Positions 21,047-35,955 of a DNA stretch of 64,000 nucleotides are shown in pieces. The position numbers and the translations under genes are program-made. Below the pieces are notes generated by a model. It ran no database searches. It was not told the DNA's origin and worked only from the letters and a program-made list of their open reading frames with translations. Origin of the DNA: an uncultured Alloprevotella sp. GTDB taxonomy: Bacteria; Bacteroidota; Bacteroidia; Bacteroidales; Bacteroidaceae. The DNA lies in assembly GCA_944322095.1 (NCBI GenBank), contig CALUNU010000001.1, positions 62,001-126,000 on the forward strand, written 5' to 3'. The first letter of the stretch is position 1, and the number at the start of each line of letters is the position of its first letter.

Positions 21047-21757
21047 TTATTTTAATACCTTATGCGATTTGCCATTTTTGCTGACAATAAACACCCCGTG
21101 CGAGGCTTCTTCGTTTTTTACAACCCGTCCCGACAAATCGTAAGTCACGTTGTTCTTGTCTCCTTGGGTTGCCGAAACGTTGTTTATGCCGGTGCTTCCG
21201 CCGTTTTCTTCCCACTCATCGTTGATAGAGTTGAGCCACGCCTGCACGCCGCTTGTCTGGCCACTCCTTGCCCCCAAGCCGGTGAGGTGGGCGGCGTCGG
21301 GCGTGAGGTCTACGATTTTCTGCAGCGTCTCGTCGCGGAAAGTGGATGCGTAAGTGCAGAAGGGAACGACGGTTTTCCCCTTAAAGTCGTAGCTTTCGGC
21401 AAAGGTGGAAATAATCATCGGGGCGGTGTGCCACCATACGGGGCAACCGATGAACACGATGTCGTAATCGTTCCAGTTCTCCACCGTAGAGGCTATGGCC
21501 GGGCGTGCGTCGTTGTCGCGCTCTTCAAGGGCAACCTCGGTGCATTCGGTGTAGTCGGTGGGATAGGGCGTAACAGGCTCTATGCGGAAGAGGGTGCCGC
21601 CCGTGAGGCGCTGTATTTCCTGAGCCACCCGCTGCGTGTTGCCGCTCCACGAGAAATATGCAATCAGCACGCGTTGCCCGCCAAAATAACTTTCTTGTGC
21701 GCTTGCGCCCGACGCAAGCATAACCAACATGGCCAATAGCGTTACTAACTTTTTCAT
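21047..21757 (-). CDS. exported flavodoxin with a C-terminal sorting-like tail
   Basis: A 236-residue protein. It has a signal peptide (residues 1-20, SGASA-Q) and a flavodoxin domain with the FMN phosphate loop YFSWSGNTQ (about 34-42), the GCPVWWHTAPM loop and FCTYAS. A linker and a tail of about 45 residues (TGINNVSA..., YDLSGRVV, HGVFIVSKNGKSHKVLK) match the style of Bacteroidales C-terminal anchoring/sorting tails. Flavodoxins carry one electron pair on FMN and are normally cytoplasmic, so the signal peptide is remarkable. A second, tail-less copy lies at 24246-24782. It sits between the hydrolase and DUF362 genes with gaps of 27 and 10 bp. Confidence 0.88.
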   Translation of the reverse strand: MKKLVTLLAMLVMLASGASAQESYFGGQRVLIAYFSWSGNTQRVAQEIQRLTGGTLFRIEPVTPYPTDYTECTEVALEERDNDARPAIASTVENWNDYDIVFIGCPVWWHTAPMIISTFAESYDFKGKTVVPFCTYASTFRDETLQKIVDLTPDAAHLTGLGARSGQTSGVQAWLNSINDEWEENGGSTGINNVSATQGDKNNVTYDLSGRVVKNEEASHGVFIVSKNGKSHKVLK

Positions 21758-21784: not shown

Positions 21785-22882
21785 TTAAAGATGTTTCCCA
21801 AAAAACTCCGTCAGCTTGCTCACAGCTTTGTCCACATACTCAGGCACCCAGTATGTCTGGATGTGCCGTGCGCCGGGGATGAGGAACAGCTCCTTGTCGT
21901 TCGTGCCCGTGGCTTTGCTGAAACATTGCTCGGTCATATAGAACGTGTCGGCATTGCTGCCCGCCATCATCAGGAGAGGTTGGTTGATGAGATACATTCC
22001 CTCGCTCGCATCGAACGCCATCAAGTCCACCAGACTGCTCTTGGTGTAGCGGAAGGTGGAGCCGGGATGAGCGTGGGTTTGGAGATAATACTCGTAGCCG
22101 TCGCGGTAGAGGTCGAACGGGAGCTTTTTCGCCTGCTCCGGCGTCATGCCGCTCATGTCGCCCACATATTCGGGAGCCTCTCCGTTGGCTTCCTTCTGGC
22201 GGGCGGCGCAGGCATCGGCAAGGCGCTTTTGCACATCGCCCATTTGCGAATCGAGAAACCCGTTGCGGCGCACCAGCCCGGAGTTGAACATACTGAGCGT
22301 GGCAACTGCCTTGAAGCGTTTGTCGGTCTGCGCGGCTTTCAGCGTATAGCCGCCACCGCCACAGATGCCGAGAATGCCGATGCGCTTTGCATCCACGCCG
22401 GGATACTGCGCCAAGATGTCGGCAGCACGGTGGATATCTTCAATGCGGCTGGCAGGCTTGTCCACGCCAGGCGGCTCACCTTCGCTTCCTCCCTGATAGG
22501 CGGCGTCGAAGGCAAGGCAGATGTAACCCTGCTCTGCCATCCGCTGGCTGTACAACCCGGCCACCTGCTCTTTGCAGCCTCCGTTGGGATGTGCCACGAC
22601 AAGGGCGGGATAAGCCTTTGCCGCGTCGTAACCGGCAGGCGTATAAACGTTGGCTACGATCTTTAAGCCGCCGAGGTCGTAGGCAATGCGGTGAATGTTC
22701 ACCTTGCCTGGCTCGTTTTTGGTGATGGCTCCCCGATATACCAATCCGAAGGGGTTGCTGTTGGGGCTTTTAAGGGTGGAAAAGTCCACCGGCGTAAATG
22801 CTTGCTTAGTCTGTGCGACGGCGGAGCCTGCCAGCATCAAAGCGGCGGCACCGCACAACAGCGATTTGAATATTGGCTTCAT
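21785..22882 (-). CDS. exported alpha/beta hydrolase (dienelactone hydrolase-like, Cys nucleophile)
   Basis: A 365-residue protein with a signal peptide (SAVA-Q) and an alpha/beta hydrolase fold similar to the YcjY/dienelactone hydrolase branch. The oxyanion region is VVAHPNGG. The nucleophile elbow is LGICGGGG, so the nucleophile appears to be Cys, not Ser. The acid/His end is [10 protein letters not shown] and [11 protein letters not shown]. Substrates in this branch are diverse (lactones, esters). It follows the alcohol dehydrogenase gene by 24 bp, suggesting a role on the same kind of molecule. Confidence 0.82.
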
Positions 22883-22906: not shown

Positions 22907-24061
22907 CTACATACGCTCTTTCAATACCTCAAACAGCTCCTCCCTCGTAAATTGCTTGCAGCAGCCCGGCGTGAGGATACAAGTGTCGGCAGCGGCATGC
23001 AGAATACCCTCGTCCGTAATGCCCAGTTCGCTCCAACGGGTAGGCAGTCCAATTTCCTTAATAAAGGCTTCGAGGGCGTCGATGCCGAGGGCGGCAGTCT
23101 GCTCCACGGTGTCGCCTTTCACGCCCCACACCCGTTCGGCCATGCGCGCCAGCTTTTCCTTGCCTTCGGAGAGCAGGTGGCGATAGAGCGCGGGATGGAT
23201 GACGGCCAAAGCCCGCCCGTGGTTGCAGTCGGTGTAGGCCCCCACGGCGTGTTCCAGCATGTGGCATTGAAAGTCGGTCTGCTTGCCCAGCTTCAGCAGG
23301 CTGTTTTCGGCAAGGGCGGCGTCCCACATCAGTTCGCCCCGTGCAAAGTCGTCGTCGGGGTTGGCAATCAGGGCACGCAGGTTCTTCACGACGTTGCGCA
23401 TCACAGCCTCGCCCAGTTCGTCGGACACGTTATCGGTTTGCGGCTGGCCCATATAGGTTTCCATGCAGTGGCTCAGCGTGTCGAACGCGCCGCTGACCAC
23501 TTGCCCCATAGGGAGCGACAGGGTGAGGTCGCTGTCGAGGATGGCAAAGTCGTAGTAGGCTCCGACCAGCGGTTGCTTCAGCCGCTTTTCGGTGTGGGTG
23601 ATGACGGCCCCGTTGTTCTGCTCAGCGCCCGTGCCTGAAGCCGTAACCACGGCACCCATTGGCACAAACTCGGTGGGGAACTGGTGCTTTGTGTACTGCA
23701 TCTCCCAGATGTCCTCGTCCAGCTTGGCCGCGGCCGACACGACCTTGCAGCAGTCGATGACCGACCCGCCGCCTACGGCCAGGATAAAATCGATGCCCCG
23801 TTCGCGCACCAGCCGTGTGCCCTCCTGCACCTTGTCGTAGGTGGGGTTGGGCTTAATGCCGCCAAAGTCCACCACCCGTTTGCTACACTCGTGCAGCCAG
23901 CCCTGCAGCCGGTCGTAAAGCCCCGTGCGCTTCAGCGAACCGCCGCCGTAGGCCAGCAGCACGTTGGGGCCCACACGTTTCATCTCCTCCTTGATGGCGC
24001 TCTCGGCGCACCCCTTGCCAAAGTGTTGGCGCACGGGGTATTCGTAAGTAAAGTTGTTCAT
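22907..24061 (-). CDS. iron-containing alcohol dehydrogenase, YqhD/BdhA-like
   Basis: A 384-residue group III alcohol dehydrogenase. The NAD(P)-binding AVGGGSVIDCCKV and the metal-binding His residues (SHCMETYMGQ, HMLEHAVGAYTDCNHG) are present. N-terminal NNFTYEYPVRQHFGKG is typical of YqhD and the butanol dehydrogenases, which reduce aldehydes such as acrolein, glyoxal, methylglyoxal or furfural with NADPH. It is cytoplasmic, has no signal, and heads the run hydrolase-flavodoxin-DUF362-RibD-like. The 184-bp gap upstream should hold its promoter, but I see no clear -7 box there. Confidence 0.92.
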   Translation of the reverse strand: MNNFTYEYPVRQHFGKGCAESAIKEEMKRVGPNVLLAYGGGSLKRTGLYDRLQGWLHECSKRVVDFGGIKPNPTYDKVQEGTRLVRERGIDFILAVGGGSVIDCCKVVSAAAKLDEDIWEMQYTKHQFPTEFVPMGAVVTASGTGAEQNNGAVITHTEKRLKQPLVGAYYDFAILDSDLTLSLPMGQVVSGAFDTLSHCMETYMGQPQTDNVSDELGEAVMRNVVKNLRALIANPDDDFARGELMWDAALAENSLLKLGKQTDFQCHMLEHAVGAYTDCNHGRALAVIHPALYRHLLSEGKEKLARMAERVWGVKGDTVEQTAALGIDALEAFIKEIGLPTRWSELGITDEGILHAAADTCILTPGCCKQFTREELFEVLKERM

Positions 24062-24245: not shown

Positions 24246-24782
24246 TTATTTTATCATCTTAATCTCCCGCAGCCATTGCGTCAGCCCTTTCGTGTCGCGG
24301 TTCACGGCGCCGTAGCCTTTCAGGTGCTTGGCATCGGGCGTGAGCGCCACAATCTTGGCCAGCGTCTCGTCGCGGTAGGCCGAGGCGTAGGTGCAGAAGG
24401 GGACGACGGTCTTGCCCCGGAAGTCGTAGCTCTCGGCAAAGGTGTTGATAATCATCGGGGCGGTCCACCACCACACGGGGCAGCCGATGAAGATGGTGTC
24501 GTACGAGTCCCAGTCGGCCACCCGGTTCTTGATGGCGGGGCGGGCGTCCGTCTCCTTTTCTGTCTTTGCCACTTCGGTGCAGGGTTTGTAGTCGGTGGGG
24601 TACGACTTTGCGGGTTCGATGCGGAAGAGGGTGCCGCCCGTCTGGCGGGCAATCTGCTGGGCCACGTACTGCGTGTTGCCGCTCCAACTGAAGTAAGCTA
24701 CCAACGTTTTTCCCGTCTGTGCGCTGAGCGCTGTTACGCCCGTCAGGAGGAGGGCGACGAGGGTGAAGAGTTTTGTTTTCAT
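24246..24782 (-). CDS. exported flavodoxin
   Basis: A 178-residue paralogue of the protein encoded at 21047-21757. It has a signal peptide (residues 1-21, TALSA-Q), the phosphate loop YFSWSGNTQ, FRIEPAKSYPTDY, the FMN-binding GCPVWWWTAPM and FCTYAS, then ends after the domain without the sorting-like tail. As an exported flavodoxin it would be periplasmic. It lies 108 bp after the frameshifted hydrolase gene and may belong to the transcript that starts at the BASS transporter. Confidence 0.9.
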   Translation of the reverse strand: MKTKLFTLVALLLTGVTALSAQTGKTLVAYFSWSGNTQYVAQQIARQTGGTLFRIEPAKSYPTDYKPCTEVAKTEKETDARPAIKNRVADWDSYDTIFIGCPVWWWTAPMIINTFAESYDFRGKTVVPFCTYASAYRDETLAKIVALTPDAKHLKGYGAVNRDTKGLTQWLREIKMIK

Positions 24783-24890: not shown

Positions 24891-26064
24891 TTAGTCCAGC
24901 TTTTTCTCTTTCAGCCAGGCGGAGAGCAGGTCGGCAAGCTGCACGTTGTTCTTCTCGGTAAAGAGGAAGTGGAAGTTGCCCCTGATGCCTTGTTCGGGCA
25001 GGTGCACCACCGTGGCGTCGCCGCCGTGGCGGTTGATGCACGCGGCAAACAAGCGCGCCATCCTGAGGCGTACGCGCCAGCTGTCCATTGCCCAGTTGTT
25101 GCTCGGCCGGTCGGGGATGTAGTCGCCATAGTAGATGACGATGGGGATGCGGGTGAGCTTCGCGAAGTCGGCCGGGGCGATGGATGTTGCCCCCAAAGCT
25201 CCGAACGGACTGATGGTGGGCAGGGGTGCGGGCGTTTCGCCTTCGGGAAAGACAAAGCCGCTGCCCGGCTCGTAGGCAACGATGGCGCGCACCTTGTTGC
25301 TCTTGATGGCTGCGTGCCAGCCCGGCCCGCCGCCCTGCGAGTGGGTGACGAGGATGCCGCCGCCAATTTTCTCCATCAGGGCTGCCACGTCGGCTGCAAT
25401 CAGCTCTTCGTCGTAGGCGCCCGTGTTGGGCGTGATTTGGCGGAAAAACTGGTCCAGCGCTTCGGCCGACTGTGGAAACTGGCTGCCGTCGTAAAGCTTT
25501 GGCCAGATGCCCATGCGGAAGTTTTCGAACCAGAACTGGTCGTCGGCCGTGGCTTTGATGGTTTCGTCCACCGTGCTGCGTCCGGCGCAGCCCCGGCGTG
25601 GCTGGTCTATCAGGTAGACGCCGAAGTCACGGCGCAGGAAGAGCGTGGAAAAGCCCTCGCGGCCGTCGGGCGTGCTTTCCCACGTCTTGGCCGATTTGCC
25701 CTGCCCCGTGCAGGAAGACAAGCGGGTTCTTGCGGGCGCCCACCGGGATTTGGTACGACACGTAGGCGTGGTCGCCGTGCAGGGTCTGGCCGTCTGCCTT
25801 CAGCGGCTGGTGCGTGTTGTAGGTGCCCGGCTCCGTCTTTACCGAGCCGCCAACCATGAAACTGCCTTGCTCGCGGATGGCCAGGATGCTGTTGGCTGCT
25901 GCCTCTCCGAGCGCTCCGGGCCGCGCGCCGCCACAGCCTGCGCACAAGGCCAGCAGGGTGAGCAGGAAGATGCAATGAATGCGTTTGCCCCTCGTGCGGC
26001 CTTTCTTGTGCCCGGCATAGCCGGAGCAAGCTTTGCTCTGCTTTCTCTTTGTCGAAATGTTCAT
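24891..26064 (-). pseudogene. alpha/beta hydrolase lipoprotein gene with a frameshift
   Basis: Two overlapping reverse frames together make one exported hydrolase. The upstream frame starts at 26064 (MNISTKRKQSK), has a lipobox (LLALCAGCGG) and reads to NPLVFLHGAGQ, the oxyanion block. The downstream frame continues with SAKTWESTPDGREGF, IDQPRRGCAGRST, the nucleophile elbow VTHSQGGG and the C-terminal His region (GDATVVHLPEQG). The change of frame falls at the AAA/TTT run at 25695-25697: removing one base restores a family-like HGAGQSAKTW. Either the gene is inactivated, expression is phase-variable through the run, or it is a sequencing error. Family members are esterases of unknown substrate. 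Confidence 0.8.
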
Positions 26065-26074
26065 GCTTTTGTGT

Positions 26075-27079
26075 TTAAGCTGTTGCTGCTTTTGTGCCGC
26101 CATACACGCCCGACATGGGCATCGCGTCCAGCGTCCGGTCTATCTGTTCCACCTCTTCTTCGGTCAGCGCGATGTCGGCCGCCGCCGCGTTCTCCTGCAA
26201 GCGGTCGGGCCGGCGCGTGCCGGGGATGGGAACGATCCACGGCTTTTTGCAAAGCATCCACGCCAGGGAGACCTGTGCGGGCGTGGCGTTCTTTTCGCGG
26301 GCGATGCGGCGTACGAGGCCCAGCAGCTCGCGGTTTTTCTCGTAGCTGTCGGGCTGGAACTGCGGCATCGCGGCCCGATAGTCGGTCCCCGCGTCGAACT
26401 GCGAAGCCGCGTCGTAGCGGTCGCTGAGCAACCCGTTGGCAAGCGGCGAGAAGGCCACCAGGCCGATGCCCAGCTCCTCCAACGTGGGGAACAGGGCCTC
26501 GTGCCAGCGGGCCATCATCGAATAGCGGTCTTGCACGGCGGTGAGCGGGCATACGGCCGTGGCGCGGCGGATGTCCTCCTCCGACGCCTCCGACAAGCCC
26601 CAATAGAGCACCTTGCCCTCCCGTATCAGGTCGGCCACGGTGCCCGCCACCTCCTCGATGGGCACCTGCGGATCGGGGCGGTGCTGGTAGTAGAGGTCGA
26701 TATAGTCGGTCTGCAAGTGGCGGAGCGAGCCCTCCACCGAGCTGCGTATGGTCTGGGGACGTGAGTCGGGCAGCAGGGGGTAGGGCACCCGGCCGCTTTC
26801 CACGTCGAAGCGCAGGCCGAACTTTGTGGCGACGACCACCTTGTCGCGAAAGGGCTTCAGCGCCCCGCCCAGCAGTTCCTCGTTGTCGTGCGGGCTGTCG
26901 GGCGTGCCATACACCTCGGCCGTGTCGAAGAAGTCGTAGCCCAGGTCGACCGCCCGGGCCAGCAGCTCCGTCATGGCCCGATGGTCGGCAGATGCGCCAT
27001 AGGCGTGGCTCATCCCCATGCAGCCCAGGCCGACGGCCGAGACGCGCAGGCCTCTCTTTCCCAAGTCTCTGTATTTCAT
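26075..27079 (-). CDS. aldo/keto reductase (YakC/AKR13-like)
   Basis: A 334-residue TIM-barrel NADPH-dependent reductase. The catalytic tetrad is visible: Asp in FFDTAEVYG, Tyr in the same block, Lys in VATKFGL, His in YYQHRPDP. The cofactor-binding end is WIVPIPGTRRPDRLQEN. The start (MKYRDLGKRGLRVSAVG) overlaps the flavin reductase stop by 4 bp (ATGA), so the two are translationally coupled. A close paralogue, broken by a stop codon, lies at 29026-30024. It reduces aldehydes or ketones in the cytoplasm; the substrate is not determined. Confidence 0.93.
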   Translation of the reverse strand: MKYRDLGKRGLRVSAVGLGCMGMSHAYGASADHRAMTELLARAVDLGYDFFDTAEVYGTPDSPHDNEELLGGALKPFRDKVVVATKFGLRFDVESGRVPYPLLPDSRPQTIRSSVEGSLRHLQTDYIDLYYQHRPDPQVPIEEVAGTVADLIREGKVLYWGLSEASEEDIRRATAVCPLTAVQDRYSMMARWHEALFPTLEELGIGLVAFSPLANGLLSDRYDAASQFDAGTDYRAAMPQFQPDSYEKNRELLGLVRRIAREKNATPAQVSLAWMLCKKPWIVPIPGTRRPDRLQENAAAADIALTEEEVEQIDRTLDAMPMSGVYGGTKAATA

Positions 27080-27657
27080 AGCGGCTTCTCCCTTGCAACA
27101 AGTTGTTCCCCGTCCTTGAAAGCCGTGCCCACTGTCGGGCCCAGCACGCGGTATGTGCGTGCCGACGAGTCGAACGACAGGGGCTTCAGCTTGTCGAGGT
27201 CCACCCGCCCCCTGTCGTCCAGGATGGACTCGTCGGCCTGCATGTTGATCACTTCGCCCAGCACGTACATTTCGCCCAGGCGCTGCTCCATACTGACGAC
27301 CCTGCACTCCAACGTCAGGGCATATTCCTCGATGACGGGTGCGTCGACAAAAGCGCTTTTCGACACGTGCACGCCTGCCGCTTCCATCTTGTTTGCCTCG
27401 TGTCCCGACACAAGGCCGAAGTAGTCCGACAGCACCAAGTTGTCCGCGCCCGCGATGCTCAGCGTAAAGGCCTTCTTTTTCAGCAGGTTTTCGGTGGTTT
27501 TATGCTCCATAGCCAGGTTTAAGGCCACGTGGTGGGCCGAGCATTGTCCGCCCCAGGCGGCATTCATCGCGTCGGGCGTTCCGTTCTCGTCGTAAGTAGC
27601 CACGATCAGCACCGGCAGCGGAGCCAGAATGGCTTTCTTTCCAAAGTTTTTTCTCAT
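27076..27657 (-). CDS. flavin reductase-like protein (FMN-binding split barrel)
   Basis: A 193-residue protein of the flavin reductase/split-barrel flavoprotein family. The N-terminal PLPVLIVATYDENGTPDAMNAAWGG block and the LSDYFGLVSGHEANKMEAAG segment are typical. Such proteins bind FMN and use NAD(P)H to supply reduced flavin or act directly as reductases. It follows the transporter gene by 13 bp and overlaps the reductase gene at 26075-27079, which suggests that they act on a shared substrate or supply each other with reducing power. Confidence 0.88.
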   Translation of the reverse strand: MRKNFGKKAILAPLPVLIVATYDENGTPDAMNAAWGGQCSAHHVALNLAMEHKTTENLLKKKAFTLSIAGADNLVLSDYFGLVSGHEANKMEAAGVHVSKSAFVDAPVIEEYALTLECRVVSMEQRLGEMYVLGEVINMQADESILDDRGRVDLDKLKPLSFDSSARTYRVLGPTVGTAFKDGEQLVAREKPL

Positions 27658-27670
27658 CGTATCTGCATGT

Positions 27671-28720
27671 TTAGTTTTCGTCCTTCAACGCCGCCTCCCG
27701 TTTCCCCTTTTTCCACAGCTGCCACGAGTTGACGATGTTTTGCCAGATGATGTAGCAGCTCGGCGCCACGGAAATGACGGGCGACAGATAAGTGTAGGCT
27801 GTCCAGATGGCCAGCAGCGTGTTCTTCTGCCCGCTGCCCTGTCCGCAGCTGATGTAGTCGTGGCAGAGCCGGCCCAGCAGCTTTCCCGTGCCAAACTGCC
27901 ATACGCAGACCACAAGCCCCGACGCCGCCAGCAGCAAGAGTACATGCGGGTCGAAGTGGCTGTTTACCACCGAGCGTAGCGTCAGCCCGATGGCGATGAC
28001 GAGCGACACGCCCCACAGGTAGAAAGCCAGGTCGCCCAGCAGCCTCACCGTGCGGGCGTGAACTTTCGGCAGCAGCTCCCGCAGCGCCCAGGCCGCCAGG
28101 AAGGGGCAGATGAGCAGCGGGAAAACGTGCCGCAGGATGAGCGCAAACTGCGCCGCAAACGAGCCCGCCGCGCGCATCTCCACCAGCGGAAACACAGCGG
28201 GTATCATCACCGCCGCCACCAGGTTGCTCACGATTGTGTAGGTGGTCAGCGTGGTTTCGTTGCCGCCCAGCCGCCCCGCAATGACGGCCGCTGCCGTCCC
28301 CGTGGGGGCGATGAGGCAGACCAGTGCCCCCTGCGCCGCCACGCGCCAAGGCCCCGCGGGGAGGAAGTGCGTCGGCACGGCCACTGCCAGGCAGCACACC
28401 AGCTGAAGCAGCAGCAGCGCCACGTGCCACCGCTTGATGCGCATCTCGCGCGGGTTGACCTTGCAGAACGTGGCAAACAGCATTACGAAGATGAAGAAGG
28501 GCATCGCGTAGCCGCTCACCCCGTTGGCCACGGCTTTGAGCGGCGCGAGCCACGGGGCAAAGTGAAACGCAGCGTAGACGCCAAAGCCCGCGCACATGCC
28601 GAGCGGCAGCGTCCACATCTTGAAGAAGCGCATGATTCTTTCTTTCGCTCCGGCCCCGCCCTTGTGCTTGGCAGCAACGGTGCGGGCCTCGCCCTGCGCC
28701 TTCTTTGTTGCGGTGTTCAT
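27671..28720 (-). CDS. BASS-family (bile acid:sodium symporter-like) transporter
   Basis: A 349-residue polytopic membrane protein with a ~30-residue Lys/Ala-rich cytoplasmic N-terminus and about nine or ten hydrophobic segments, in the pattern of the bile acid:Na+ symporter superfamily. APTGTAAAVIAGRLGG and the downstream NLVAAVMIPAVFPLVE lie in the substrate/ion-binding half. The transported solute (an organic anion or keto acid) cannot be told from sequence. It is the first gene of the transporter-flavin reductase-aldo/keto reductase-hydrolase run, driven by a promoter with the putative AraC site at 28750-28816. Confidence 0.8.
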   Translation of the reverse strand: MNTATKKAQGEARTVAAKHKGGAGAKERIMRFFKMWTLPLGMCAGFGVYAAFHFAPWLAPLKAVANGVSGYAMPFFIFVMLFATFCKVNPREMRIKRWHVALLLLQLVCCLAVAVPTHFLPAGPWRVAAQGALVCLIAPTGTAAAVIAGRLGGNETTLTTYTIVSNLVAAVMIPAVFPLVEMRAAGSFAAQFALILRHVFPLLICPFLAAWALRELLPKVHARTVRLLGDLAFYLWGVSLVIAIGLTLRSVVNSHFDPHVLLLLAASGLVVCVWQFGTGKLLGRLCHDYISCGQGSGQKNTLLAIWTAYTYLSPVISVAPSCYIIWQNIVNSWQLWKKGKREAALKDEN

Positions 28721-28749: not shown

Positions 28750-28777
28750 CAAAATTAAGGCCCCCGCCCGGCCCTGT
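28750..28777 (-). promoter_or_regulatory. promoter of the BASS transporter operon (weak -33)
   Basis: The reverse-strand -7 box is TAATTTTG (28750-28757). The 20-bp spacer runs to 28777, where a TTTG is expected but TATGG is found. The conserved element at 28778-28817 abuts this position. A missing -33 next to a regulator site is the usual sign of activator dependence. Confidence 0.6.
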
Positions 28778-28817
28778 CCATACACAGATTACGGATTGAT
28801 GCACCCATTTCACCGAA
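28778..28817. promoter_or_regulatory. putative AraC-family operator, copy 1
   Basis: A 40-bp block that begins CCATACACAGATTACGGATT and ends TTTCACCGAA. It matches copy 2 at 34851-34890 in 39 of 40 positions and lies at the same distance (20 bp) from the -7 box of the gene it precedes. A third diverged copy is at 34929-34962 beside the regulator gene. Binding by the AraC protein is inferred from location and geometry. Confidence 0.65.
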
Positions 28818-28858: not shown

Positions 28859-28943
28859 ATACTGCGATTTTCGCGGCTTGGTATTGCAATTTCGCGGCTT
28901 GGTATTGCAATTTCACGGCTTGGTATTGCATTTTCGCGGCTTG
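28859..28943. repeat. four tandem 21-bp repeats
   Basis: Units begin at 28859, 28881, 28902 and 28923 and follow the pattern GTATTGCAATTTCGCGGCTTG, with 1-3 changes each; the first has one extra T. The 21-bp period equals two helical turns, placing every unit on one face of the DNA. The array sits about 40 bp upstream of operator copy 1 and 15 bp from the terminator of the preceding transcript. Confidence 0.85.
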
Positions 28944-28958
28944 ATATATCGTAAGAAA

Positions 28959-29025: not shown

Positions 29026-30024
29026 CTATTCCTTCACCTTCAATCCGCCGAACACGTCGCTCATCTCCATGCCGTTTAAAGCCTCGTCGATGGCCTGCAC
29101 TTCGTCCGGTGTGAAGTTGACGTCGGCCGCCGCGGCGTTCTCCTGCAAGCGGTCGGGCTTGCGGGTGCCGGGGATGGGAACAATCCACGGCTTTTTGCAA
29201 AGCATCCACGCCAGGGAGACCTGTGCGGGCGTGGCGTGGTGCGCGTCGGCCAGGCGGTTGACGAGGGCGAACAGGTGGCGGTTTTTCTCGAAGCTTTCGG
29301 CCGAGAACTGAGGCATCGTGCTGCGGAAGTCGGTCTGAGCGTCGAACCGGGTCTGCGCGTTGTAGCACGCGGAGAGCAGGCCGTTGGCGAGCGGAGAGAA
29401 TGCCATCAGCCCCACGCCCAGCTCATCGAGCACGGGAAACAGCGACTCGTGTCAGCGCGCCATCATCGAATATCGGTTTTGCACGGCGGCAACGGGGCAT
29501 ACCTTGTGTGCCCGGCGCAGGTAGGCTTCGTCGGCCTCGGAGATGCCCCAATGCAATATTTTGCCCTCCCGGATAAGTTCCGCCATAGTCTGCGCCACCG
29601 TCTCCGGCTCCACATTGGGGTCGATGCGGTGCTGGATGTAAAGGTCGATGTGGTCGGTATGCAGGCGTTGGAGCGAACCTTCCACGGCGCTGCGTATGGT
29701 TTGGGGAGACGAGTCGGCCAGAACGGGCCACGGCCAAGGCACGCTGCGGTCCATCGCGATGCCAAACTTCGTGGCGAGCACCACACGGTCGCGGTAGGGG
29801 CGCAGGGCGTCGCCCACGAGGTGCTCGTTGTCGTGCGGGTCGGCGGCTGTGCCGTAGCTCTCGGCCGTGTCGAACAGCGTGTAGCCCAAGTCGACCGCCC
29901 AGGCCAGCAGTTCGGTCATTTCCCGCTTGTCGGCCGTTTGTCCATAGGTGTGGCTCATGCCCATGCAGCCCAGCCCCACGGCTGAGACGCGGAGGCCGCT
30001 GCGTCCAAAGTTTCTGTATTTCAT
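29026..30024 (-). pseudogene. aldo/keto reductase gene interrupted by an in-frame TGA
   Basis: The reading frame starts at 30024 (MKYRNFGRSGLRVSAVG) and codes for a YakC/AKR13-like reductase closely related to the one at 26075-27079. The tetrad blocks LFDTAESYG, LATKFGI and YIQHRIDP are present. After NRYSMMAR a TGA (29452-29454) interrupts the frame, which then continues as HESLFPVLDELG to a normal C-terminus. The intact paralogue has Trp (TGG) there (MMARWHEALFP), so one G-to-A change explains it. It starts 3 bp after the FMN reductase stop and is the last gene before the terminator. Confidence 0.85.
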
Positions 30025-30027
30025 ACG

Positions 30028-30705
30028 TCAGACTCCTGTTCCCAGTTCATACGCCTGCTGCATAAACGCGGTGCCTTTGACGCTGCCTTTCCGCCCCAGT
30101 CCGATGGCTTTCACCATGCCCCGCTCGGTGGGGTTGGGCAGGCACATAACGAAGCCGCGGAAGGCGGCGATGGCATAGTCGGCCGTGCTCTCGGCATTGT
30201 CGGCACAGGCGGTGATGTAGTAAAACTCCTTGTTTTTCAAGTCGGTGTAGTGTGAGTAGGTGCGATCGATGAGCGTTTTCATCTGCCCGTCGATGTTCAT
30301 GAAGTAGACAGGGCTGGAAAGCACGATAATGTCGGCATCGAGCATCTTGCGCACGATGGTTGGCGCGTCGTCGGTGGCCACGTCGGCGCTGTCGGCCACG
30401 TGGCGCTCGTCGGCTTCCTGGAAGAAGCGGATGTCGTAGTCGCTCACGAATATCTTTTCCACCTGCGCGCCCGCAGCCTTGGCCCCGCGGGCAAACTCAT
30501 CGCAGAGCAGGTCGGTGTTTCCCCCGCGGCGCGGGCTGCCGGAGAGGATGAGCACGCTTTTATGGGCTTTTTTGATGGTGGAGGTGTCGGAACGGTTGAT
30601 GTGGTAGCGGTCTTGCTCTGCCGCTGCCTGTTCGCCGCTGTTTCCGCACGATGCGAGCATCGCTACGACGAGGGCGAGAAAGAGCGTTGAAATGATGTGT
30701 CTCAT
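30028..30705 (-). CDS. lipoprotein NAD(P)H-dependent FMN reductase / flavodoxin-like
   Basis: A 225-residue protein with a lipoprotein signal (LASCGN, Cys at about 20), so it should be tethered on the periplasmic side. The rest is a flavodoxin-like fold of the NADPH-dependent FMN reductase/iron-sulfur flavoprotein group: SGSPRRGGNTDLLCDEF (FMN phosphate site) and ADIIVLSSPVYFMNIDGQMKT (isoalloxazine-binding loop). There is no Cys cluster for an Fe-S centre in the domain. It lies between the exported aldo/keto reductase and the disrupted one. Confidence 0.85.
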   Translation of the reverse strand: MRHIISTLFLALVVAMLASCGNSGEQAAAEQDRYHINRSDTSTIKKAHKSVLILSGSPRRGGNTDLLCDEFARGAKAAGAQVEKIFVSDYDIRFFQEADERHVADSADVATDDAPTIVRKMLDADIIVLSSPVYFMNIDGQMKTLIDRTYSHYTDLKNKEFYYITACADNAESTADYAIAAFRGFVMCLPNPTERGMVKAIGLGRKGSVKGTAFMQQAYELGTGV

Positions 30706-30714
30706 GATAATGAA

Positions 30715-30798
30715 GAATTGATAATGGATATTTGAGAATTGATAATTGGGGAATGAGAACTGATAATTGTCAATTGTCCATTATCAATTCTCAATTGC
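30715..30798. repeat. AT-rich heptanucleotide tandem repeat, tract B (12 units, inverting)
   Basis: Twelve 7-bp units in register. The left part reads AATTGAN-like and the right part TCAATTN-like, so the array switches strand near 30765 and can fold into a long imperfect hairpin. It overlaps the last codons and stop of the aldo/keto reductase gene at 30784-31740. Confidence 0.8.
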
Positions 30799-31740
30799 CT
30801 TGTTTCCCCAGACCATCCGCTTCACGTCGTCGAGCGTGGCGCCCGAGATGCGCTGCTCCTTGTTGAGCGAGCGTATTTGCTGCATCTCGGCGTCGGTAAG
30901 GGTAAAGTCGAAAATTTGGATGTTCTCCTTGATGTAGTCGGGGTTGGTGGCGCCGGGGATGACGGAGAAACCCTCCTGGATGTGCCAGCGCAGGATGACT
31001 TGGGCGGGCGTCTTGCCGTGCGCCCGGGCTATCTGCTTGATGACGGGGGCGTGCAGCAGCAGGCCCTGGCTCTGGGCACCGCCCAGCGGATACCAGCACT
31101 CCACCTGGATGCCATTCTCTGCGGCCTTCTTGCGCACCGCCACGCGCTGGGTGTAGGGGTGACACTCCATTTGGAGCACGGCGGGCTTGATGGTGGCCTT
31201 TTCCATAATCTCGTCGAACGCCTCGTCGCTGGTGTCGAAGTTGCTGATGCCGAGGGCGCGCACCTTGCCCATCTTTACGGCCTTTTCCATGTCGCGCCAC
31301 GCACCGAGATAGTCGCCCACGGGCTGGTGGACGTAGAGCAGGTCGATGTAGTCGAGCTGCATGCGGTCGAGCATTGCGTCGATGGCCCGGAGCGACTTGC
31401 CCTCGCCGTATTCAGTAGGCCAGAGCTTGCTGGTGATCCATATCTCGCTGCGGGGGATGCCGCTCTCCTTGACGGCCTGTCCCACGCCTTCCTCGTCGTT
31501 GTAGGCATGGGCGGTGTCGATGTGGCGGTAGCCCGTGCGCAGGGCGGTGAGGCACGACTGCTTGCACACCTCGTTGGAGCCTTGCAAGAAGGTGCCCAGT
31601 CCGAAGCGGGGCATCTCCACGCCGTTGTTCAGCTCGACCACGGGCACGCCGGCGGTCGTTGTTTTCTCCTGTGCGTTCACCACGCACGCGCCGCTCATGA
31701 GCAGGGCGGCAGCGAGGAGGAGTTTTTTCAGTGAGTTCAT
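30784..31740 (-). CDS. exported aldo/keto reductase (DkgA-like)
   Basis: A 318-residue protein. A signal peptide (MNSLKKLLLAAALLMSGACV, cut after VNA) precedes a complete 2,5-diketo-D-gluconate reductase-type barrel. The tetrad is Asp/Tyr in HIDTAHAYND, Lys in ITSKLW and His in YVHQPVG. The cofactor region is FSVIPGATNPDYIKEN. DkgA-type enzymes reduce methylglyoxal and beta-keto esters with NADPH. Export is unexpected for an NADPH enzyme and there is no twin-arginine motif. The last residues AIEN and the stop are made by heptamer repeat DNA. The start was placed at 31740 because a classical signal peptide begins there. Confidence 0.88.
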   Translation of the reverse strand: MNSLKKLLLAAALLMSGACVVNAQEKTTTAGVPVVELNNGVEMPRFGLGTFLQGSNEVCKQSCLTALRTGYRHIDTAHAYNDEEGVGQAVKESGIPRSEIWITSKLWPTEYGEGKSLRAIDAMLDRMQLDYIDLLYVHQPVGDYLGAWRDMEKAVKMGKVRALGISNFDTSDEAFDEIMEKATIKPAVLQMECHPYTQRVAVRKKAAENGIQVECWYPLGGAQSQGLLLHAPVIKQIARAHGKTPAQVILRWHIQEGFSVIPGATNPDYIKENIQIFDFTLTDAEMQQIRSLNKEQRISGATLDDVKRMVWGNKAIEN

Positions 31741-31799
31741 CTGTGTTTCGTTTTTGGTTGGTTCTTTGTTGGTTTTGCCTCGTCGTTCGGCGTTTGGCA

Positions 31800-32744
31800 T
31801 CATCGGTGCAGCGTGACCTGCGTGAGGAAACGGTCGAACCACGTGGTCCATTCGCCCTGCGCACCGAAGCCGTGTGGCCAGCCTTCCAGCACGTGTTCCT
31901 CCACCTGCACGCCGGCTGCACGGGCAGCGTCGGCGTTGGCGACGAACTGCTGGTAGAAGGGGTCGCGCGTGCCATAGGTGTAGAATGTCGGGGGAATGGC
32001 GCCGGCACGCAGGTCGTCCACGTTGTTGTTCGACACGCTCAGCCGCCCGTAGAACGAGTAGATCATACCGATGGCGCATACGTCGGCCGACACCTCGTCG
32101 AGCGCATCGGGAACGTAGCTGCCGTCCAGCGCCGTGCCGTTCACCAGTCCGTCGAAGTGGAGCGCCTCGTCGCCGCAAAGGATGCCGCCTGCGGAAAAGC
32201 CTACCGAGGCGATACAGTCGGGGGCGATGCCATAGCGGGCGGCGCGTGCCAGGTCAAGACTGCCTTTTTCCATCGTATATGGGCGCACGCGGTAGTTCAC
32301 CACGAAGCTCTGCCAGCCCAGCGCTGCCAGTAGCTCTGCCACGGGCGCGCCCTCGTTTCCGCTGCGAAACATGAACGCGCCGCCGGGGCATACCATCACG
32401 GCTCCTTTCACCTCCACGCTGTCGGGCACGGGATACCATATTATATAGGGGCGGAAGTCGGGGTCGTCCTGATAGCTGCCGTTGTTCACGGTGTAGCTGG
32501 TCACGGCCGGCATGTTTCCCTCGGGCCACAGATAGATGCGTTCCGCATCGGGGGCGTCGGCGGCGGGAGCTTCGCCGATGGGGCCGGTTGGCAGGCTGCT
32601 GTCCGCGCTCTCGCAGGCCGCCGGCATTGCCGTGGCGAACAGCAGGCAAAGCGCCGGGAATGTTTTGAGCAGGCGGGAGCAAAAAGAGCTTGCCGCTCCG
32701 CTCGGGCGGGTGAAAAGCCGCGTGGAGCGAAATGTTTTTTTCAT
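31800..32744 (-). CDS. exported alpha/beta hydrolase (esterase/BD-FAE-like)
   Basis: A 314-residue protein with a long basic N-terminus and hydrophobic stretch (about residues 25-44) that ends in AAC, so it is exported and possibly lipidated. The hydrolase domain has the oxyanion motif CPGGAFMFRSGNEG, the nucleophile elbow VGFSAGG, the acid block YGTRDPFY and the His in WPHGFG. This is the lipase/acetyl-esterase (BD-FAE) branch, often found with carbohydrate or xenobiotic esters. It precedes the exported reductase by 59 bp. Confidence 0.85.
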   Translation of the reverse strand: MKKTFRSTRLFTRPSGAASSFCSRLLKTFPALCLLFATAMPAACESADSSLPTGPIGEAPAADAPDAERIYLWPEGNMPAVTSYTVNNGSYQDDPDFRPYIIWYPVPDSVEVKGAVMVCPGGAFMFRSGNEGAPVAELLAALGWQSFVVNYRVRPYTMEKGSLDLARAARYGIAPDCIASVGFSAGGILCGDEALHFDGLVNGTALDGSYVPDALDEVSADVCAIGMIYSFYGRLSVSNNNVDDLRAGAIPPTFYTYGTRDPFYQQFVANADAARAAGVQVEEHVLEGWPHGFGAQGEWTTWFDRFLTQVTLHR

Positions 32745-32812: not shown

Positions 32813-33661
32813 TCATTTGCTCTTTCCATAGCTGCAAAGCCATTTCACCGTCTGCGGGTCGTAGTGGGAGAAGAACAGGCTGTGGCCCAGGTCGAGCTGG
32901 CGGATGGCCTGCATGTCGTCGTCGCTCAGCGCGAAGCCGAACACGTCGATGTTTTGCTCCATGCGCTCCTTGCGCACCGACTTGGGGATGACAACGACGC
33001 CGCGCTGGACGAGGTAGCGCAGGGCGATTTGTGCCGCGCTCTTGCCGTACTTGGCGCCGAGGGCTACGAGCGTGGCGTTGCTGAAGAGGTTGTTGCGCCC
33101 CTCGGCAAACGGGCCCCACGCCATGATGTGTGCGCCGTACTGCTCCATAATCTTCTGCGCCTCAATCTGCTGGTTGAACACGTGGGTCTCCACCTGGTTG
33201 ACCATGGGCGGTATCTCGCTGAACTCGCAGAGGTCGATGAAGCGGTCGGGGTAGAAGTTCGACACGCCGATGGCGCGGAGCTTGCCGGCCCGGTACGCCT
33301 CTTCCATGGCTCGCCACGTGCCGTAGTAGTCGCTGAACGGCTGGTGAATGAGGAGCAGGTCGATGTAGCTGGTCTGCAAGCGGCGGAGCGACTCGTCGAT
33401 GCTGGCCTTGGCCCGTTCGTAGCCGGCGTTGGCTATCCATACTTTCGTTACGACGAACAGCTGCTCGCGGGGTACGCCACAGCCCCTCAGGGCGTTGCCC
33501 ACGTTTTGCTCGTTGCCGTATGCTTGCGCCGTGTCGATGAGGTGGTAACCCACGCTGATGGCATCCTTTACGCACCGCTCGCATTCCGACGGCGATACCT
33601 GGTAGACGCCATAGCCCAGAATGGGCATTTCGACGCCGTTTCTCAATGTTACTGTATCCAT
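32813..33661 (-). CDS. aldo/keto reductase (DkgA/YtbE-like), cytoplasmic
   Basis: A 282-residue barrel with all tetrad residues: Asp and Tyr in LIDTAQAYGNE, Lys in VVTKVW and His in LLIHQPFSDYYG. The C-terminal cofactor block is VVIPKSVRKERMEQN (the family's IPKS motif). There is no signal peptide. This is the island member closest to E. coli DkgA/YqhE, which reduces methylglyoxal and is regulated with yqhD by an AraC-type activator. It follows the hydrolase at 33761-34729 by 99 bp. Confidence 0.92.
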   Translation of the reverse strand: MDTVTLRNGVEMPILGYGVYQVSPSECERCVKDAISVGYHLIDTAQAYGNEQNVGNALRGCGVPREQLFVVTKVWIANAGYERAKASIDESLRRLQTSYIDLLLIHQPFSDYYGTWRAMEEAYRAGKLRAIGVSNFYPDRFIDLCEFSEIPPMVNQVETHVFNQQIEAQKIMEQYGAHIMAWGPFAEGRNNLFSNATLVALGAKYGKSAAQIALRYLVQRGVVVIPKSVRKERMEQNIDVFGFALSDDDMQAIRQLDLGHSLFFSHYDPQTVKWLCSYGKSK

Positions 33662-33760: not shown

Positions 33761-34729
33761 TTATCTGTTTTCTTCCCAGAAGCGTACGGCGCCGCCTGTC
33801 CAGCCTTCGGCGCTCGTCCCGATGCCCAGCCCGAAGCCGTGGCGGAGGCCTTGGTAGAGGTGAAACTCCGCGGGGATGCCTGCGGCTTGCAGGGCTTCGG
33901 TGCGGCGGCGCATCGTGGCGGGGTTGGCGATGCCGTCGTTTGAGCCGACCACCGAATAGGTTGGCGGGTCTTGCCGGGTGTATTCGCTATGCCCCGTGTA
34001 GGCCATCACCACCGTGGCGGGGCGGGGAAGCGGGGTTGCTCCGAAAGCTACCGTGCCGTAGGAATCGAGGTATGCTGCCATGCGGGCCCCTGCCGAGCTG
34101 CCCCAGACGGAGTAGCCCGCCGTGTCGACTTGCAGCTCTGCGGCATGACGGAAGATGCACCAAATACCTGCCGCCAGATCTTCGAGGGCCGCCTGCGCGC
34201 TGCCCGTTTGGTATTGGATGACGAATGCATTGTAGCCTTTCCGGCTCAGCGCCAGGGCGTGGGGAAAGCCCTCGTGGATGGAGCCGACGTACGAGAAGCC
34301 GCCTCCGGGACAGATGACCGCAAACGGCGCGCCCGGCCGTCCGCGAAAGAAGAACAGCCCGGCGTCCTTGCGCCCGAGGTCGTAGAATATTTTTCGCCCG
34401 GCCACCACCGAGTCGATCATTTGGTTGATGTAGCCCACGCAGCGCTCCGCGTCAATATAATTATGGTAGGGGAGCAGCCGCTCCACGTCCGAGAGAGGCA
34501 TGTCTGCGTCGTATCCCCATTCCAGAGGCAGGATGTAGCTGCTGAACCCCTTGAAGGCGGGATGCGCCAAAACGTCGGCGATGGTGCTGCGGGTGGTGAG
34601 GTGCTGCGTTCTCGTGGCGATGGAGTGGTTCCCATCCTGCGAGGGAACGTAGGGCGAAGCCGTATGCTTGTCGCAACTGCCGAAAGATAAAATTGCCATA
34701 AGCAGACAGGTATTGATTGTCATTCTCAT
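33761..34729 (-). CDS. alpha/beta hydrolase lipoprotein
   Basis: A 322-residue protein whose N-terminus MRMTINTCLLMAILSFGSC has a lipobox (LSFGSC). The hydrolase domain has the oxyanion CPGGGFSYVG, the nucleophile elbow VWGSSAGA, the acid in VVGSNDGIAN and the His in RHGFG. It belongs to the same BD-FAE/acetyl-esterase group as the protein at 31800-32744, but is a distant paralogue. The start at 34729 fits the promoter at 34823; a longer open frame has no signal peptide. It is the first gene of a six-gene run and is divergent from araC. Confidence 0.86.
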   Translation of the reverse strand: MRMTINTCLLMAILSFGSCDKHTASPYVPSQDGNHSIATRTQHLTTRSTIADVLAHPAFKGFSSYILPLEWGYDADMPLSDVERLLPYHNYIDAERCVGYINQMIDSVVAGRKIFYDLGRKDAGLFFFRGRPGAPFAVICPGGGFSYVGSIHEGFPHALALSRKGYNAFVIQYQTGSAQAALEDLAAGIWCIFRHAAELQVDTAGYSVWGSSAGARMAAYLDSYGTVAFGATPLPRPATVVMAYTGHSEYTRQDPPTYSVVGSNDGIANPATMRRRTEALQAAGIPAEFHLYQGLRHGFGLGIGTSAEGWTGGAVRFWEENR

Positions 34730-34822
34730 CGGGGATTTCCTTTTATGCGGTGCTGGGGCTGCGGCTGTGAGCGCCGGTGCGGCCTGGCTCGGATGGCCGG
34801 GCGCAGCCCGCATCAGCCTTTG

Positions 34823-34850
34823 CAAAGGTAGGGCGAAACGCTTCGCCTGG
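34823..34850 (-). promoter_or_regulatory. promoter of the hydrolase/reductase run (weak -33)
   Basis: The reverse-strand -7 box is TACCTTTG (34823-34830) and the 20-bp spacer reaches 34850. At the -33 position TATGG replaces TTTG, exactly as in the transporter promoter, and operator copy 2 begins there. The leader is about 90 nt. Confidence 0.6.
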
Positions 34851-34890
34851 CCATACACAGATTACGGATTGAAGCACCCATTTCACCGAA
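34851..34890. promoter_or_regulatory. putative AraC-family operator, copy 2
   Basis: It has 39 of 40 bases in common with copy 1 (28778-28817); the only difference is GATTGAAGC for GATTGATGC. It directly abuts the -33 position of the hydrolase promoter, about 160 bp from the divergent araC gene. Confidence 0.65.
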
Positions 34891-34928
34891 GGGCACCGGC
34901 CGGCATGGGCGACGGCCCGGCGGGGTAA

Positions 34929-34962
34929 CACAAATTGCGGAATGTTGCACCTATTTTACAGA
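34929..34962. promoter_or_regulatory. putative AraC-family operator, diverged copy 3
   Basis: About 27 of 35 positions agree with copies 1 and 2, including CACA, ATT, CGGA, TGCACC and ATTT. It begins 73 bp (about seven helical turns) after copy 2 in the same orientation and lies 40 bp before the araC -7 box. It could be an autoregulatory site or a second site for the hydrolase promoter. Confidence 0.5.
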
Positions 34963-35002
34963 TGGGGCCTCCCGTCTGATAAAAAGATCGGGGGAAAAAG
35001 GT

Positions 35003-35010
35003 TATTTTTG
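35003..35010 (+). promoter_or_regulatory. -7 box of araC-family gene
   Basis: TATTTTTG matches TANNTTTG and would give a start near 35016, with a leader of about 35 nt. No TTTG lies 19-21 bp upstream. Confidence 0.45.
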
Positions 35011-35049: not shown

Positions 35050-35955
35050 ATGGGCGACATTTTAAACATTGGCACCATCCCCGACTATAACGAGTTCTTG
35101 GGCATCGAGACGCTCAACCCGCTGGTTACGTTTATCGACTTTCGCGAGGTCGAGGTGTTGAAACACAGGAAAAAGCTCTACGGCTTCTACGGTATCTACC
35201 TGAAAGAGAAGATACACGGCAAGCTGACCTATGGGCGCAGCCGGTACGACTACGAGGAGGGCACGCTGGTGTTTGTGGCGCCCGGCCAGGTGGCAGGCAT
35301 CGACGACGGCGGCGAAACGCTCCGCCCCGAAGGCTGTTGCCTGCTGTTCCATCCCGACCTGCTGCGCGGCACCGGCCTGGCCCGCAAGATGAAGGAATAC
35401 ACCTTTTTCTCCTACGAGGTGAACGAGGCCCTGCACATGTCGGAGCGGGAGCGCCAGACCGTCTTCAACTGCTTCGCTGAGATACGCGAGGAGCTGCACC
35501 ACAGCATCGACAGGCACACCCGCAGCATCATCACGTCCAACATCGAGGTGCTGCTCAACCATTGTCTCCGCTTCTACGACCGCCAGTTTGCCACGCGCGC
35601 GGCTGTCAACAAGGACGTCCTCGCCCGCTTCGAGGACCTGATGGCCGGCTACTTCGACTCCGACAAGCCTGCACACATCGGCCTGCCCACCGTGGCGTGG
35701 TGTGCCGACCAGCTCCACTTTTCGGCCAACTATTTCGGCGACCTTATTAAGAAGGAAACGGGCAAATCGGCCATCGAATGCATCCATCTTGCCGTCGTGG
35801 ACCGCGTCAAGGACTTGCTGCGGGGCACGGGCAAGACCGTGAGCGAGATTGCCTACGAGGTGGGCTTCCAGTATCCGCATCATCTGAGCCGTATGTTCAA
35901 GAATGTGGTGGGCTGTACGCCGAACGAGTATAGGGCCGGGGCGAGCGTGGTGTGA
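35050..35955 (+). CDS. AraC-family transcriptional regulator
   Basis: A 301-residue regulator. The N-terminal ~190 residues form a cupin-like sensor domain (YGIYLKEKIHGKLTYGRS, GTLVFVAPGQVAG). The C-terminal ~100 residues are a double helix-turn-helix of AraC type: first HTH around LPTVAWCADQLHFSANYFGDLIKKETG, second around KTVSEIAYEVGFQYPHHLSRMFKN, then the family's end motif GCTPNEYR. It is the only regulator in the island and is divergent from the long reductase/hydrolase run. By analogy to E. coli YqhC it may sense aldehydes or other electrophiles; the ligand is not known. Confidence 0.92.
   Translation: MGDILNIGTIPDYNEFLGIETLNPLVTFIDFREVEVLKHRKKLYGFYGIYLKEKIHGKLTYGRSRYDYEEGTLVFVAPGQVAGIDDGGETLRPEGCCLLFHPDLLRGTGLARKMKEYTFFSYEVNEALHMSERERQTVFNCFAEIREELHHSIDRHTRSIITSNIEVLLNHCLRFYDRQFATRAAVNKDVLARFEDLMAGYFDSDKPAHIGLPTVAWCADQLHFSANYFGDLIKKETGKSAIECIHLAVVDRVKDLLRGTGKTVSEIAYEVGFQYPHHLSRMFKNVVGCTPNEYRAGASVV

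Follow-up and report, generated by a model that had tools for sequence, protein, structure and literature searches.

A putative AraC-type operator at promoters without a -33 box in gut Bacteroidales and its candidate reductase regulon

A 40-base element that occurs twice in near-identical form within a 64,000-nt stretch of DNA from an uncultured Alloprevotella sp. (hereafter the window) is very probably the operator of an AraC-type activator, placed at one exact distance from the promoter signal of two long gene runs of a detoxification type; the arrangement is shared by many gut Bacteroidales. The best explanation of the sequence evidence, and a likely one, is that a dimer of the autoregulated AraC-family protein encoded from position 35050 activates the sigma-ABfr promoters, devoid of a -33 box, of a reductase regulon. 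As far as we are aware, operators are known for few of the soluble AraC-type regulators in gut Bacteroidales. The fixed rule that relates site to promoter would permit target prediction in many genomes and offers a clean system for studying how activators replace the -33 contact of the unusual sigma factor of Bacteroidetes. Should the inducer prove to be an aldehyde, the regulon would represent an electrophile response in common gut bacteria. The operator layout can be tested directly.

Element copies and promoters in the window

The candidate operators, their promoters and the adjacent regulator are as follows.

28778..28817, minus strand: operator A1 (copy 1, core 28781-28816), a 21-bp direct repeat at the transporter promoter
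28750..28757, minus strand: -7 box of the transporter promoter, TAATTTTG, read leftwards
34851..34890, minus strand: operator A2 (copy 2, core 34854-34889) at the hydrolase promoter
34823..34830, minus strand: -7 box of the hydrolase promoter, TACCTTTG, read leftwards
34927..34962, plus strand: operator B, a diverged copy, presumed autoregulatory, 73 bp from A2 and 40 bp before the araC -7 box
35003..35010, plus strand: -7 box of the araC promoter, TATTTTTG
35050..35955, plus strand: AraC-family regulator of 301 aa with a predicted cupin-like N-terminal domain and a double helix-turn-helix (Pfam, AF2 model)

Copy 1 reads CCATACACAGATTACGGATTGATGCACCCATTTCACCGAA (28778-28817), and copy 2 differs from it at a single position, A for T, so that the 39/40 identity described in the first-pass annotation is borne out. 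Both -7 boxes are of the TAnnTTTG type. The other features that it had reported hold as well: the gap between box and element is exactly 20 bp at both promoters, the spacers are unrelated despite the near-identical elements, TATGG occupies the TTTG place of the -33 box in both promoters, and the araC start codon at 35050 lies 159-160 bp from copy 2. That description lacked the third, diverged copy (operator B) and the internal 21-bp repeat, both of which are added here. Within the element, half-sites of the TTACnGA type recur at 21 bp (TACACAGATTACGGA, 7 bases, ACCCATTTCACCGA); they are clearer in relatives, where the arrangement is TAnACnnATTACnGA-N7-ACCnATnTTACnGA. In a repeat search, the region of operator B (34919-34963) was recovered at 64% over 45 nt.

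The regulator and its own operator

The protein encoded at 35050-35955 carries the C-terminal double helix-turn-helix that defines the family (Pfam HTH_18, 9.4e-20; HTH_AraC, 3.2e-13), and Pfam returned no match for its N-terminal domain. An AlphaFold2 model built from 34 sequences has a pLDDT of 88; its N-terminal part resembles the regulatory domains of RhaR (TMt 0.71) and AraC (0.59), and its C-terminal part the DNA-binding domains of AraC and MarA. By predicted fold, an AraC-like cupin N-terminal domain is present, and dimerisation is putative. C172, within the motif NHCLRFYDRQF, is invariant in the 34 aligned homologues and might serve as a thiol sensor.

The proposed link between the element and the araC gene is supported by AraC orthologues, which bear the same site before their own start codons. 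Among the upstream regions of 111 homologues (33-100% identity), the site was detected at no more than 6 mismatches in 66, as compared with 3 of 1110 dinucleotide shuffles; the 45 homologues without it at this threshold are mostly distant ones. In orthologous loci the distance from the site to the araC start is mostly 65-84 bp, also at loci that lack an adjoining divergent target promoter. Site B precedes the araC TAnnTTTG box by 38-40 bp in 35 of 38 loci, the window counted; of the three exceptions, two lie one helical turn away (29 and 50 bp) and in one no box can be recognised. Measured against its own promoter, that of araC, site B has the reverse orientation of the target sites. Within the window, as at 7 related loci, sites A and B are 73 bp apart; elsewhere the distance is 21, 52, 59-63, 74 or 125 bp. 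These spacings fall close to whole helical turns (R 0.76, p 0.002, nine distinct values; p 0.007 in an earlier set that included paralogues), although the values are partly related by descent and hence not fully independent.

Because paralogues possess similar sites, the assignment of the operator to the 35050 protein is founded on proximity and conservation. The subfamily has multiplied: the genome contains 7 homologous matches, of which at least those on contigs C3 and C15 are long, and many occur in relatives; the C15 paralogue has a similar site of its own (L039), and the sites of many paralogues share the pattern. It is thus conceivable, if unlikely, that the element is an AraC-family operator bound by one or more paralogues encoded elsewhere, such as those on C3 or C15, and that the neighbouring protein regulates something else. 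Against this stand the grouping of the three strongest sites of the genome within 6.2 kb beside this araC, the constant position of the copy before araC in orthologues described above, and the outcome of the upstream scan of the C3 paralogue, in which the site was not found. Regulation by the adjacent 35050 protein is preferred.

Specific co-evolution between operator and DNA-binding domain was considered and rejected: their divergences are correlated (r 0.20), and the correlation disappears after controlling for the N-terminal domain in a Mantel test, being explained by general relatedness. One paralogue group (L138, L139, L140, L145 and L147) carries a pair of opposed sites, one about 128-139 bp and the other 57-75 bp upstream of the start of araC. 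In most members the second site has its own -7 box directed toward araC, which suggests direct class II autoregulation in that group.

Promoter geometry and the missing -33 box

The published promoter consensus comprises TAnnTTTG at -7 and TTTG near -33 (PMC7366714). In a scan of 200 related genomes with a pattern that leaves the -7 box unspecified, 41 sites were found in 22 genomes, whereas the reversed-pattern control gave 1 match. CAAAnnTA occurs at one exact offset in 32 of the 41 sites and one base off in 2 more, and several of the remaining sites retain CAAA at that offset; across species, the spacers are not conserved to a degree comparable with the element or the box.

At the transporter and hydrolase promoters, TTG is absent at spacers 17-23. 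More generally, TTG at spacers 18-20 was present in none of 104 element promoters versus 19 of 95 controls (Fisher 2.8e-7), the controls being TAnnTTTG boxes located 15-120 nt before an ORF and lacking the element; TTG peaks at spacers 19-20 in these controls, and spacers 21-22 were omitted from the comparison owing to partial overlap with fixed element bases. These results support the view, advanced in the first-pass annotation, of an activator-type operator with fixed geometry and a truly missing -33 box. Proteins of the AraC family can also repress, and the element abuts the -33 region, so that the protein might instead cover this region until an inducer releases it. Such a role is very improbable, since a repressed promoter would be expected to keep the TTG that 20% of controls retain, and since the spacing is fixed to the base, as contact between an activator and polymerase requires. 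Activation remains the favoured direction of regulation.

Rarity of the element in the genome

A joint pattern matches three times in the window, as against no match in 100 shuffles, and genome-wide pattern searches returned only the same three matches in 2.34 Mb and none for the reversed pattern, which excludes chance as the source of the copies. A looser pattern that includes the -7 box adds one weaker site (G000:C6:86798), located on another contig ahead of a gene for a protein that matches models of the carboxymuconolactone decarboxylase and cupin types (the CMD-cupin gene). The 39/40 identity within one genome and the duplicated reductase genes nearby could point to a recent duplication or a non-regulatory dispersed repeat, but this is extremely improbable, given that the element is retained between promoters with different spacers and boxes, that the genome has only these copies and weaker sites, and that diverged versions with the same half-sites and spacing in many species already refute such an origin. 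The dispersed repeat that the first-pass annotation had named as the outcome adverse to its proposal is ruled out, the sites being few and situated at promoters. A transcribed RNA element is ruled out by position, as the element lies upstream of the -7 box.

At 28869-28947, 51 bp beyond operator A1, a 21-bp unit, TTTCGCGGCTTGGTATTGCAA, is repeated in tandem 3.8 times. The period of this array equals that of the operator repeat, its sequence differs from the operator, and the unit was found nowhere else in the genome. On comparison by eye, only its start (TACCAA, reverse strand) fits a half-site, and the array was not counted among the operators.

Likeness to known operators

The element displays the sequence features of a class II operator: direct half-sites 21 bp apart, the near one at the -33/-35 region, a fixed distance, and, where such promoters have a weak or missing -35/-33 element, the absence of the -33 box. 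AraC-type dimers occupy direct half-sites set two helical turns apart, and the operator type is already known from AraC I1-I2 and from the 21-bp repeats of Bacteroides HTCS. In E. coli, the half-sites of araI1-araI2 are spaced 21 bp apart. The promoter-proximal AraC site at araBAD recruits polymerase (PMC4760080). As there, an AraC-type dimer (inferred here) would occupy two directly oriented half-sites, and the N-terminal domain fold matches the AraC/RhaR regulatory domains. The araBAD promoter is of the sigma-70 type and involves CRP; the promoters here are of a TAnnTTTG-only type and serve different targets; the second operator is nearby and in helical phase, in contrast to the distant araO2 of E. 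coli AraC.

The predicted operators of Bacteroides HTCS are direct repeats averaging 21 bp, on which monomers sit two helical turns apart (PMC3878776). As sensor kinases of polysaccharide loci, HTCS are large and membrane-bound, whereas the present regulator is soluble, has 301 aa and a predicted cupin-like domain, and is encoded beside reductase operons. It does not belong to the HTCS, which combine a periplasmic sensor, histidine kinase, receiver and AraC domain; at 301 aa, it has Pfam HTH domains only. Proteins of the MarA type are monomers that bind one marbox of about 20 bp, unlike the two half-sites spanning about 36 bp seen here. Class II MarA sites overlap -35 in one orientation, and those of class I are found upstream in the reverse orientation (PMC12052159, PMC8811837), and sites A and B show the same relation of orientation and position.

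Proposed mode of regulation

The repeat, its spacing, the missing -33 box, the conservation and the regulon content are given by sequence alone; binding, the dimer, the direction of regulation and the inducer we infer. A dimer of the 35050-35955 protein would bind two half-sites 21 bp (two helical turns) apart, with the near half-site ending at the place of the -33 box, so that at the transporter and hydrolase promoters it would cover roughly -35 to -70 from the start site. The bound protein would replace the absent -33 contact and, by class II activation, bring RNA polymerase with the Bacteroidetes sigma-ABfr to both promoters, thereby turning on two long reductase operons. Operator B, reversed and some 39 bp upstream of the -7 box of araC, would mediate autoregulation of the class I type and is in helical register with the operator of the hydrolase promoter. 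The inducer is perhaps a reactive aldehyde or another electrophile, a guess judged only from the YqhD-/DkgA-like gene content of the targets. As a whole, the earlier activator interpretation is partly supported.

A broader generalisation is offered tentatively, the odds being somewhat against it: one AraC-type subfamily, expanded across Bacteroidales, might share a common operator grammar on sigma-ABfr promoters from which the -33 box has been lost. Targets would carry a class II site whose core lies exactly 23 bp from the TAnnTTTG box, and each regulator gene would have a reversed class I site placed 38-40 bp ahead of its -7 box. With the two sites in helical register, two dimers would form one complex that controls divergent promoters, the regulon of aldehyde/electrophile reductases being an analogue of the E. 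coli YqhC regulon and independent of it.

The regulon across species

In named relatives, including Mediterranea sp. An20, Bacteroides mediterraneensis, Phocaeicola coprophilus, Tannerella and Dysgonomonas, 106 sites were found in 52 of 72 loci. For at least nine genes of the window, orthologues are preceded by their own element in species with rearranged operons. The genes led in this way are orthologues of the window's hydrolase, DkgA-like reductase, SBF transporter, YqhD-like dehydrogenase, another aldo/keto reductase, flavodoxins, FMN reductase and DUF362-type protein, and also of the CMD-cupin gene. Such consistency of targets despite operon rearrangement is the strongest evidence for a regulon.

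E. coli YqhC activates YqhD and DkgA, and YqhD protects against aldehydes (PMC8262776). As in that system, an AraC-family regulator is divergently encoded from YqhD- and DkgA-type genes (35% and 38% identical, respectively). The regulon here is, unlike that of YqhC, much larger, and orthology with YqhC is ruled out, as the regulators have no full-length similarity: they match at 25%, and only across an 80-residue part of the DNA-binding domain. No description of the regulon was found in the literature searched, outside which subscription papers mostly fall, which is weak evidence of novelty.

Gene content of the two runs

Both gene runs read leftward. The genes of the first, behind the transporter promoter, are:

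27671..28720, minus strand: SBF-family (bile acid:sodium symporter-like) transporter, first gene of operon 1; element-led orthologues in L170 and L172
27076..27657, minus strand: flavin reductase-like protein
26075..27082, minus strand: aldo/keto reductase; Phocaeicola coprophilus orthologue with its own element
24891..26103, minus strand: alpha/beta hydrolase, split by a frameshift near 25687-25706 relative to an intact relative
24246..24782, minus strand: flavodoxin; orthologue element-led in Phocaeicola coprophilus
22907..24061, minus strand: iron-type alcohol dehydrogenase, the YqhD-like gene; element-led orthologues
21785..22882, minus strand: alpha/beta hydrolase
21047..21757, minus strand: flavodoxin; element-led orthologue in L172
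19930..21036, minus strand: DUF362-type protein, assigned by eye from sequence, with no NCBIfam match; element-led orthologue in L212
19166..19870, minus strand: RibD C-terminal-like reductase, probable end of operon 1

Those of the second, behind the hydrolase promoter, are:

33761..34738, minus strand: alpha/beta hydrolase, first gene of operon 2; orthologues element-led
32813..33661, minus strand: aldo/keto reductase, the gene compared with E. coli DkgA above; orthologues often element-led (13 sites with a -7 box)
31800..32744, minus strand: alpha/beta hydrolase
30784..31743, minus strand: DkgA-like aldo/keto reductase
30028..30705, minus strand: NADPH-dependent FMN reductase / flavodoxin-fold protein
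29026..30024, minus strand: aldo/keto reductase with an in-frame TGA at 29452-29454, through which a relative reads

In the gaps checked in both runs, no leftward TAnnTTTG box was found other than those of the two element promoters; with a single box per run, co-transcription may, judging from gene order, extend over as many as 10 genes in the first run (28720 to 19166) and 6 in the second (34738 to 29026). Together with the CMD-cupin gene, the regulon would comprise up to about 17 genes, and the earlier figure of about eleven was too small. The TGA at 29452-29454 reflects gene decay or a sequencing error. A-T rich inverted repeats (32 nt, 84% complementary) are located at 30709-30796, just upstream of the FMN reductase gene and within the presumed operon 2, and could be a terminator, an attenuator or a small mobile remnant.
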